DNA from: Planctomycetales bacterium
GTDB lineage: Bacteria; Planctomycetota; Planctomycetia; Planctomycetales; Planctomycetaceae
Assembly (NCBI GenBank): GCA_026400835.1
Contig: JAPLOA010000079.1
Coordinates: forward strand, 1-64,000
Direction: 5' to 3'
DNA length: 64,000 nucleotides
Shown here: piece by piece, positions 39,511 through 42,306 of the stretch
Numbering within the stretch: position 1 is the first letter of the stretch
How the letters are laid out: each line of letters opens with the position of its first letter
The notes under the pieces: model-generated
Databases searched by the model: none
Seen by the model: the letters and a program-made list of their open reading frames with translations, nothing else
Told to the model about the DNA's origin: nothing
Translations under genes and position numbers: made by a program

Positions 39511-42306
39511 ATGGCGTCGTTCGAAAAACAGAACGCACGGGCGTGGCACGCAGAGCCGGTTGACGGAGTACTCGCCGCGTGGGAGACGACGGAGCATGGT
39601 CTGTCGCAGACGGAAGTCGAGCGTCGTCAGCAAAAGTACGGACCGAACCTGCTTCCTGAGCGAGGAGCAACGCCGGTCTGGAAGATCGTGCTGCGTCAGT
39701 TCGCCAGTCCGCTCATCTATATTCTCGTGGCCGCTGCCGTCGTTTCAGCCGTGATCGGCGACTTGAAAGACGCCTCGTTTATCGCCGCTGTGCTGATGCT
39801 CAACGCCATTATCGGAACATATCAGGAATGGCAGGCAGAACGCAGCAGCCATGCGCTCAAGAAACTGCTGCGCATGCACGCTCAGGTGGAACGAGACGGA
39901 GAAGTTCGGGAGATCATGGCCGATGAAGTGGTTCCCGGCGACGTGCTGTGGCTCGAGTCGGGCAATCGAGTTCCCGCAGATATTCGACTGCTTTCTTCTC
40001 AGGGCCTCGAGGTCGATGAATCACTGCTCACCGGAGAATCACTTGCCGTCGGTAAAGATCATGCCTCGAAGGGAGTCGAGAACGCAACGCTGGCCGATCG
40101 ACTGAACATGACATTCGCCGGGTCTCTTGTGGCCCGTGGTCGAGCCAAGGGAGTCGTCGTGGCGACCGGTTCGGCGACCAGCGTCGGACAATTAGCTTTG
40201 GATGTGTTGGGCAGCGGGGGCGGAAAGCCACCTTTGCTGGCTCGCATGGAACGATTTACAAACTACGTCGCGATCGGCACGATCGGCGCTTCTGCGATCA
40301 TCGGCGGGCTGGGGATTCTGCTGGGCGGCTACACGGTCGTCGACACAATCTTCCTTGTCGTCGCGCTGGCCGTGTCCGCGATCCCGGAAGGATTGCCAGT
40401 GGCCATCACCGTGGCCCTCGCGGTGGCGACAACACGAATGGCAAAGCGAAACGTGATCGTCCGCCAGCTCACTGCGGTTGAAGGTCTGGGAAGCTGTACG
40501 CTTATCGCAACGGACAAAACCGGCACGCTCACCTGCAATGAACTCACCGTGAGAGAAGTCTGTCTGCCCGATGGTCAGGTGTTTCCCGTGACTGGTCAGG
40601 GCTTCCTTCCTGAGGGTGAAGTGCAGCAGGCGGGAAGTCGTGCGGACCTCGCAGAGAATGCTCAATTGGCTGCGACGATTCGTGCGGTCGTTTTGTGCAA
40701 CGAGGCCGATCTGCATCATCGTAACGATGACTGGATTTGGCGCGGGGATGCTGTCGATATTGCCGCCTTGAGTCTGGGAGTGAAGTCGGATCAGCAGCGC
40801 GAACGTTTGCTTGATACCTATCCTCAGTTGAGCAGAATCCCGTTCGAACCTGAGCACCAGTTTGCAGCCTCATTTCATCAGAACGGGGAACGGGTAGAAG
40901 TCTTCGTCAAAGGCGCTCCGGAACGAGTGCTGGAGATGTGTGACGAAAAGGTGTCATGTGACGAAAAGGTGTCAGGAACCGTTTCTGCACTGAATCAGGG
41001 GTTGCAGCGAAAAACGGTGCCTGCCACCTTTTCATCTCCCTTTTCATCTCGATCGCGAGCCGAACAGATGGCGGCGGGTATGGCGGCGGGTATGGCGGCT
41101 CGCGGGCTTCGCGTGATTGCCGTGGCCAGCGGACAATTGATGGAGCCGCTTTGTCCCGAAAACGCTCCGCCGCAACCCACGAATCTCGCTCTGCATGGCT
41201 TTTTGGGCATGATCGATCCGCTCCGTACGGGAGCGCGCGAGGCTGTGGCCGATTGTCACCGGGCCGGCGTGTTGGTCTCCATGGTGACGGGCGACCATCG
41301 CGTAACGGCTCTGGCGATTGCTCGTGATCTGGGACTGGCCGATCGAGACGATCAGGTTGTGACGGCCGCCGATGTGGAAGGAAAGTCGTCGGAACAACTG
41401 GCTGAGATGGTGCAACGAATCCGTGTGTTTGCCCGCGTCACGCCGCGTCAGAAACTGCAGATTGTGGAGGCGGCTCGTAAGTCGGGACACTTTGTCGCGG
41501 TCACCGGCGATGGCGTGAACGACGCACCAGCGCTGCGAGCGGCCAACATCGGCGTGGCAATGGGCAAGGCCGGAACCGACGTGGCTCGTGAAGCGGCTGA
41601 GTTGGTCATCAGCGACGACAACTTCAGTTCCATCGTCGGTGGAATTGAAGAGGGTCGCATTGCGTATGACAACATCCGCAAGGTGATTTATCTGTTGGTC
41701 TCAATGGGTGCGGCCGAACTTCTGATGGTTCTGTTGTCGGTGATTGCCGGCCATCCGATTCCTTTGCTGCCCGTGCAGTTGTTGTGGCTGAATCTTGTGA
41801 CCAACGGCATTCAGGGAGTTGCTCTGGCCTTCGAACCGGGTGAAGGAGACAGCCTGCGAAGAAAACCGCGTCCGCCGAACGAATCCGTCTTTAACCAGCT
41901 GATGGTAGAACGAACGGTGTTGGCGATGCTGGTGGTCGGAGGTGGCGGCTTCGTGGTTTACGACATTGCTCTTCGCGTAGGCTGGTCGGTGCCGGAGGCT
42001 CGTAATCTTTTGTTGCTGACAATGGTGCTGTATGAGAATTTTCATATCGGCAACTGCCGGTCTGAGACTCGGTCTGCGTTCGCTCTGTCACCTCTTCGCA
42101 GCCCTGTGTTGTTCTTCGGCACGCTGGGCGCGTTTCTGATTCATGTCGCGGCGATGTACGTGCCTTTCCTTCAGGACGCGTTGAGCACCAGCCCCGTGGT
42201 TTCATTGTCGTGGGTGGTGGCGATTGGTGTCAGTGTGTTGATCGTTCCGGCGGTGGAACTGCATAAGTGGTGGTGGGCGAAGCGCTTCGATCAGGGTGTG
42301 GCGTGA
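39511..42306 (+). CDS. P2-type cation-transporting ATPase with a repeat-derived insertion
   Basis: 931 residues, start ATG 39511 with AAGGA upstream. Family motifs are clear: the cation ATPase N-terminal helix, LLTGES, the ion-site SAIPEGLPVAITVA in TM4, phosphorylation D335 in ATDKTGTLTCNE, KGAPE in the nucleotide domain, MVTGDHRVTA, and VTGDGVNDAPALRAANIGVAMG. TM6 reads LWLNLVTNGIQGVALAFEPG; the D of the usual NLVTDG is N here, as in many bacterial PMR/CtpF-like pumps. Substrate is likely Ca2+ or another cation. Residues about 477-514 (CDEKVSCDEKVSGTV...SPFSS) come from a palindromic repeat (see 40939-41050) inside the N-domain, and MAAGMAAGMAA follows, from a 12-base tandem repeat. Confidence 0.92.
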   Translation: MASFEKQNARAWHAEPVDGVLAAWETTEHGLSQTEVERRQQKYGPNLLPERGATPVWKIVLRQFASPLIYILVAAAVVSAVIGDLKDASFIAAVLMLNAIIGTYQEWQAERSSHALKKLLRMHAQVERDGEVREIMADEVVPGDVLWLESGNRVPADIRLLSSQGLEVDESLLTGESLAVGKDHASKGVENATLADRLNMTFAGSLVARGRAKGVVVATGSATSVGQLALDVLGSGGGKPPLLARMERFTNYVAIGTIGASAIIGGLGILLGGYTVVDTIFLVVALAVSAIPEGLPVAITVALAVATTRMAKRNVIVRQLTAVEGLGSCTLIATDKTGTLTCNELTVREVCLPDGQVFPVTGQGFLPEGEVQQAGSRADLAENAQLAATIRAVVLCNEADLHHRNDDWIWRGDAVDIAALSLGVKSDQQRERLLDTYPQLSRIPFEPEHQFAASFHQNGERVEVFVKGAPERVLEMCDEKVSCDEKVSGTVSALNQGLQRKTVPATFSSPFSSRSRAEQMAAGMAAGMAARGLRVIAVASGQLMEPLCPENAPPQPTNLALHGFLGMIDPLRTGAREAVADCHRAGVLVSMVTGDHRVTALAIARDLGLADRDDQVVTAADVEGKSSEQLAEMVQRIRVFARVTPRQKLQIVEAARKSGHFVAVTGDGVNDAPALRAANIGVAMGKAGTDVAREAAELVISDDNFSSIVGGIEEGRIAYDNIRKVIYLLVSMGAAELLMVLLSVIAGHPIPLLPVQLLWLNLVTNGIQGVALAFEPGEGDSLRRKPRPPNESVFNQLMVERTVLAMLVVGGGGFVVYDIALRVGWSVPEARNLLLLTMVLYENFHIGNCRSETRSAFALSPLRSPVLFFGTLGAFLIHVAAMYVPFLQDALSTSPVVSLSWVVAIGVSVLIVPAVELHKWWWAKRFDQGVA
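40939..41050. repeat. Palindromic REP-like repeat inserted in frame in the ATPase gene
   Basis: Arms GACGAAAAGG...ACCGTTT (40960-40984) and its near-complement (41012-41036) match in 22 of 25 bases around a 27-base centre. The left side contains an exact tandem duplication of an 18-mer (40939-40956 and 40957-40974, TGTGACGAAAAGGTGTCA). The right side has an exact tandem duplication of a 12-mer, CCTTTTCATCTC (41027-41038 and 41039-41050). The frame is kept, since 112 bases plus duplications translate without a stop. The palindrome with a GGTGTCAGGAACC core looks like REP-type or MITE-type repeats that I recall from planctomycete genomes; no second copy is evident in this window. Confidence 0.75.

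Follow-up and report, generated by a model that had tools for sequence, protein, structure and literature searches.

A copy of a dispersed palindromic repeat family within the open reading frame of a planctomycete P-type ATPase gene

How does a palindromic repeat come to lie inside the gene for a conserved cation pump, and what does it add to the protein? The question is raised by a 64-kb stretch of planctomycete DNA (here called the window), in which a preliminary description had placed a palindrome at 40939–41091, within the N-domain of a P-type ATPase, and had proposed that a repeat element was taken into a working protein and then reshaped by slippage. We consider it very likely that a non-autonomous doublet of TIRYT/RAYT-type terminal repeats, similar in form to a REPIN, entered the N-domain and became coding. 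In such a reading the locus clearly exemplifies how mobile DNA can in nature turn into part of a conserved enzyme.

The ATPase gene and its lengthened loop

The gene occupies 39511–42306 on the + strand and encodes a cation P-type ATPase of 931 residues, which was classed as type II (PMR1/SPCA/SERCA-like) from its ORF, its Pfam and NCBIfam matches and the nearest solved chains. Five Pfam domains were found above cut-off (PF00690, PF00122, PF13246, PF00702 and PF00689), and the nearest solved chains by sequence are those of SPCA1. The best NCBIfam match, TIGR01522, scored 579 bits against a cut-off of 798, so the ion was not assigned from it. The translation contains DKTGT, KGAPE and TGDGVND, which we take to be motifs of such pumps. 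As had been claimed, the frame is unbroken through the insert over all 931 codons, and the insert region was correctly positioned at residues 477–514.

The palindrome is composed of several nested features. The full inverted repeat, which includes part of a variable outer stem, spans 40960–41036 (no strand assigned), and its 25-nt arms (40960–40984 and 41012–41036) are complementary at 22 of 25 positions (88%) and lie 27 nt apart. Within it is a 67-bp inverted doublet at 40965–41031, made of a left core on the + strand (40965–40980), a 35-nt centre and a right core on the − strand (41016–41031). Three exact tandem duplications, all on the + strand, accompany the doublet: an 18-mer at 40939–40974, in which 8 nt of outer flank and the first 10 nt of the core are present twice, a 12-mer at 41027–41050, in which the core end and its outer flank are present twice, and two copies of the 12-nt unit ATGGCGGCGGGT at 41068–41091. 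The arms, the two end duplications and the repeated downstream unit all agree with the preliminary description. No other inverted repeat in the window has at least 22 of 25 complementary positions and a loop of at most 60 nt, and none of that quality was present in five mononucleotide shuffles. Single-strand folding of 40939–41050 gave z = −5.4 as DNA and z = −4.7 as RNA, with none of 200 shuffles folding as well in either form.

In order to determine how much the insert adds, the numbers of residues between KGAPE and RGLRV were compared across 32 aligned orthologue rows, which were reduced to 26 distinct sequences when identical stretches were merged. There are 64 residues in the window protein, 45 in a sister orthologue that is 89% identical to it (L059, the same as L113, from G012, the MAG HKST-UBA72), and 29–33 in the 24 other distinct sequences (48–82% identical), which are thus 31–35 residues shorter than the window protein in this stretch. 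The expectation that relatives would be found without the insertion was therefore correct for these 24, with the sister as the exception. The three closest insert-free orthologues (L114, L117 and L127; 81–82% identical) have 32 residues, and relative to them the net gain is 32 residues, of which 28 are at the element and four come from the ATGGCGGCGGGT duplication, rather than the approximately 38 residues first proposed for the element. This extra four-codon unit (MAAG) relative to the orthologues is a duplication separate from the mobile element. It lies in the helix that follows the insert, where the orthologues have one degenerate unit. L117 was not picked up by the motif search and is missing from the structure alignment, and an 84% identical sequence (L060, from G022) begins after the insert region and is uninformative. 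Three sequences of 39–44% identity (L123, L125 and L126) were left out of the orthologue alignment; in the structure alignment, L123 of this group has no insert. Among the matches listed, a clear orthologue was present in one of the 17 other genus genomes (G012), and the best matches in the rest were paralogue-like and at most 41% identical. Paralogues at 34–38% identity have 28–41 residues at the loop site, and none reaches 45; because they span this range, the loop is taken to be naturally variable in length.

The N-domain was modelled with AlphaFold2 from 13 sequences, and the best of five models, whose mean pLDDT ranged from 60 to 78, was kept (78). Among solved structures, SPCA1 and other P-type ATPases come closest to it in fold. 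Most of the domain was modelled confidently, and pLDDT fell below 50 in two places, the cut N-terminal end and model residues 152–184; the latter correspond to ATPase residues 481–513 and lie between the helices at 141–149 and 187–201 of the model. The insert is thus predicted to be a disordered loop of about 28 residues.

The first proposal spoke of a working protein, and this part of it rests on conservation and on the pattern of substitutions, both of which suggest that the ATPase is active. Between the window and sister genes dN was 0.061 and dS 0.696 before the insert, and 0.044 and 0.679 after it, with 175 of 229 changes before the insert and 132 of 178 after it falling at third positions. 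Substitutions on either side of the insert are therefore mostly synonymous. Three frame-neutral expansions in one loop might instead be taken as a sign of a gene in decay or without function whose frame simply has not yet been closed. We regard this as improbable given the dominance of third-position changes on both sides, a dN/dS of ~0.06–0.09 (an average over both lineages that includes the time before insertion), and the retention of the three motifs.

A dispersed repeat family and its Y1 transposases

The window palindrome belongs to a repeat family that is found in this planctomycete genus. It was expected from the outset that further copies would exist, and the 16-nt core AAAGGTGTCAGGNACC was found in the window's own genome (7.58 Mb, 112 contigs) 20 times exactly and 97 times at up to two mismatches, versus 18 in a reversed control; the whole 153-base region had 12 matches there, itself included. 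The own-genome cores often occur as inverted pairs with 52-nt spacing (68 bp overall), and 24 inverted doublets were present among the fetched own-genome loci, which are a part of the 97 core matches. The window doublet likewise consists of two inverted 16-nt cores of the AAAGGTGTCAGGAACC type, and measures 67 bp where the other genus copies are mostly 68 bp. Its centre also differs: the 68-bp copies mostly have AATAG beside the core (an AATAG...CTATT centre), whereas in the window element CGTTT adjoins the left core, as it does at several transposase-flanking ends.

Across the 18 genus genomes, with no more than one mismatch allowed, matches to AAAGGNGTCAGGNACC were most numerous in G003 (275), followed by G016 (80), G014 (75), G001 and the own genome (74 each), G012 (72), G008 (29), G004 (23) and G015 (17). 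The remaining nine genomes had 0–6 matches, which is the background level (reversed controls gave 1–6 per genome). A search for exact-pattern doublets, which covered five genomes and counted each doublet once per strand, identified 59 in G003, 21 in G014, 17 in G016, 16 in G001 and 4 in G012, and 0 in the reversed control. Many of the listed copies in G012, G016 and G003 lie within 100 bases of contig starts, so these repeats probably break assemblies and the copy counts for draft genomes may be lower bounds.

The association of the family with a transposase, which the preliminary description had suggested looking for, was found in the own genome, in which 19 matches to Y1_Tnp (PF01797) were identified and several core matches flank Y1 transposase genes. 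On contigs C67 and C74, inverted AAAGGTGTCAGG ends enclose a Y1 match in elements of 747 and 748 bp, respectively, as measured between the outer core ends. The C74 protein has a 233-codon frame with HWH and Tyr (YVERNA) motifs and exceeded the Y1_Tnp cut-off; against the NCBIfam family REP_Tyr_transpos it scored 65 bits, below the cut-off of 80, and the C72 protein scored 68 bits against the same cut-off. The C67 copy is probably broken, since its frame is shorter (149 codons) and did not pass a motif filter. A second type of end, AAAGGGGTCAGGTCTC, flanks two closely similar Y1 genes, on C72 (L043, 1392–2143) and on C30 (L044, 1407–2143).

Several details of these elements were observed in passing. 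In the C74 element (L005, 773–1520) the transposase frame stops at a TGA inside the terminal core GGTTCCTGACACC, such that the repeat supplies the stop codon. The left end of the C72 copy is tandemly doubled. At C53:237314–237562 (L050), a degraded Y1 transposase match with two internal TAG stops has a tandemly doubled end on one side and, on the other, a second pair of cores that point in the same direction.

The left 16-nt core of the window copy has exactly the sequence of dispersed copies and of transposon ends, which bears directly on how the palindrome originated. Birth in place by slippage and template switching, with no mobile family involved, would account for tandem repeats at both ends, but in view of this identity we consider it extremely improbable. 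De novo origin by slippage alone was ruled out by the exact core copies and transposon ends elsewhere.

Copies within other genes were also sought. Three of the 24 own-genome doublets from the fetched loci are within open frames of at least 300 codons, the window copy being one; in the other two, the element lies ahead of the probable start of the protein, at codons 18–49 (L034) and 12–43 (L130) of the stop-to-stop frame. Those two proteins are presumably a DnaG primase and a PRPP synthetase. In a second set of 23 doublets, which came mostly from relatives and included one own-genome locus (L174), three were again within frames of that length: in L185 the doublet precedes the probable start, and the frames of L162 and L183 look non-coding by eye. 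A second clear internal in-gene copy was thus not found in this partial sample of doublets, for which frames without gene calls were used.

History of the insert and duplication of element ends

The sequence of events that we favor is as follows. The doublet would have inserted into the loop between the two N-domain helices at some time later than the split from the insert-free orthologues. It counts against this reading that the closest of these are only 81–82% identical to the window gene, no empty allele of the same species being known, and so do the unusual centre of the window copy, the one-base departure of its core from the published TIRYT motif and the presence of end duplications at a minority of core ends. 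With the reading frame kept, the DNA of the element would have become coding and added a disordered loop, its left end would have been duplicated as the 18-mer and its right end as the 12-mer, and selection on the frame would have filtered the outcomes. Duplications of 18, 12 and 12 nt, all multiples of three, are what would be expected if there was such a filter. We infer both this order and that a transposase mobilised the window copy.

The history is complicated by the sister gene, which has a 39-nt insert at about the same place. We lean slightly towards a single insertion that predates the split of the window species from G012, of which the sister would hold a shortened and decayed 39-nt remnant, while on the window side the doublet would have been kept and the host flank lost and remodelled. 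Supporting a common insertion is that the sister's insert is a palindrome too (equalled by 30 of 5000 mononucleotide shuffles) and agrees with a core variant at 14 of 18 positions (2 of 5000 shuffles did as well), that both inserts have the same codon phase at both ends (D-E-[KN]... / ...TFS), and that no other orthologue compared has an insert. Conversely, the sister retains ~15 nt of host flank, GGTCATCCGCTTTCT, which is missing from the window, and the window flanks GACGA / TCATC also fit a site ~10–15 nt upstream, by eye, as in L114 (GGCGA / TCAGC). Two independent insertions of the family in sister species, within ~15 bp of each other in a loop that is tolerant or at a site that is attractive, are a realistic alternative that we think falls somewhat short of probable: the apparent left junctions differ and both genomes hold many copies of the family, but the inserts agree in codon phase and in part of their end sequence, and this, together with the 24 other orthologue sequences without an insert, speaks against it. 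We judge one insertion, remodelled later, to be somewhat more probable than two. Since some orthologues are free of the insert and the sister may represent an intermediate, the steps from selfish DNA to protein sequence can be traced.

The preliminary interpretation is supported as a whole, since neither of the conditions that it named as refuting came true, and needs correction as to slippage. The duplications are real, and the window 18-mer, rather than being a local accident, is of a kind seen again at further family members, so slippage specific to this gene is not needed. A tandem duplication over the junction was present at 14 of 80 core ends, a minority (13 are separate, because two flagged ends at L043 represent one duplication), versus 57 of 5000 random positions, in a scan that was not tied to one breakpoint and in which the 80 ends include chance matches. 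In eight of the 14 flagged rows the duplicated unit stops after AAAGGNGTCA or AAAGGNGTCAG, which is the centre of the core. The pattern of a duplicated half-core was found at 27 places in six of the 18 genus genomes (own genome included, with 10) and 0 times in the reversed control. At 18 of the 27 the flank was also repeated to at least 80% (wholly in 12), with a period of 17–21 nt in 17 of the 18, the pattern itself admitting periods of 15–24. The duplicated flank mostly differs between sites. The nine with a flank match below 80% may have another origin, for example insertions next to each other. The window 18-mer ranks among the clean cases, with 8 of 8 flank bases repeated, and units of 17, 19 and 20 nt also occur at sites other than the ATPase.

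A second feature of the family lies just outside the cores. At positions 3–8 outside the core, 199 of 294 cells formed Watson–Crick pairs, compared with 119 on average and 147 at most when right flanks were reshuffled among elements 2000 times. The 49 doublets were a convenience sample of fetched loci from the own genome and relatives, from which one chance match of 50 (L008 at 256) had been dropped and in which a 58-bp row that is possibly chance (L138) was kept; related copies are not independent, and the evidence for pairing is thereby overstated. The outer stems seen differ between copies (CTCAGA, GGCAGA, ATCGGA and TTTAAA, among others). Either the outer stem is a part of the element that varies with its pairing kept, or the element prefers to insert at small palindromes.

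To our knowledge, how TIRYT-type elements move has not been worked out, and recurrent end duplication offers a testable handle on how they cut and rejoin DNA. We speculate, tentatively and as a less than likely possibility, that two features of the elements described here are signatures of a distinct mechanism acting on single strands: their outer stem, ~8 bp long, varies in sequence with its pairing kept, and a recurrent tandem duplication, mostly of 17–21 bp, reaches from that stem to the middle of the core palindrome. A transposase or hairpin nuclease would cut an extruded hairpin at its foot and tip, and the gap would be filled in; the predicted cuts are ~8 nt outside the core and near the core centre, after AAAGGTGTCA. 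If this were true, the ATPase copy would record such a cut-and-fill event in coding DNA, filtered for frame.

Comparison with known repeat systems

The nearest known kinds are the dimers of terminal inverted repeats (TIRs) associated with TIRYTs, REPINs, and in-frame REPs and Rickettsia palindromic elements (RPEs). In the TIRYT/TIRtron families, Y1 transposase genes are flanked by TIRs that are also dispersed as singles and dimers (PMC3733652, Di Nocera et al. 2013), and subclass 2.1 of TnpA (TnpAY1) has been discussed for transposases of this type (PMC6006769). The family described here resembles them in that its Y1 genes are flanked by non-GTAG terminal inverted repeats which are likewise scattered singly and as dimers. 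The published TIRYT motif, GGGG[AT][CG]A[CG] (PMC3733652), is present in the AAAGGGGTCAGG subfamily (as GGGGTCAG), whereas the window core reads GGTGTCAG, one base off. A further difference is that the intragenic repeats given in the sections of that report compared here are GTAG and CGTC repeats, rather than TIR dimers.

The likeness to REPINs (PMC3116915, Bertels and Rainey 2011) is in the two inverted short palindromic units with a short centre, the many copies, and an identical repeat beside a RAYT-type gene. Unlike REPINs as described there, the window element lacks the GTAG tetranucleotide, and it is intragenic, where the populations in the compared parts of that study were analysed in extragenic space. 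Neither GTAG nor CTAC is present within 40939–41050, and a classical GTAG REP was ruled out for that reason. The earlier identification of a REP-type element thus stands as to a mobile palindromic repeat, which is a doublet of the TIR type instead of a classical GTAG REP.

As in Rickettsia palindromic elements, a palindrome lies in frame in a protein gene and is absent from orthologues (PMC3733652); by comparison of descriptions only, the present family differs from these in phylum and in having an associated transposase, CGTC repeats, including RPEs of the RPE-4/RPE-6 type, being said in that report to be without a dedicated one. GACG (CGTC on the other strand) is present in the left flank of the window copy, and beside the core in none of the others among 50 flank pairs. 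The enterobacterial RU elements (Delihas 2007, PMC2759123) are similarly small non-autonomous repeats that can be read as part of a protein, and differ, again as described, in being MITE-like units of 103–168 bp from enterobacteria.

Among the compared sections of the TIRYT and REPIN literature (PMC3733652, PMC3116915), we found no description of the end duplication. In-frame dimers or groups of GTAG and CGTC REPs that encode 20 to 30 residues are described (PMC3733652), and a palindromic dimer inside a gene is therefore not new in kind; the less expected parts of the finding are the end duplication and the covarying outer stem.
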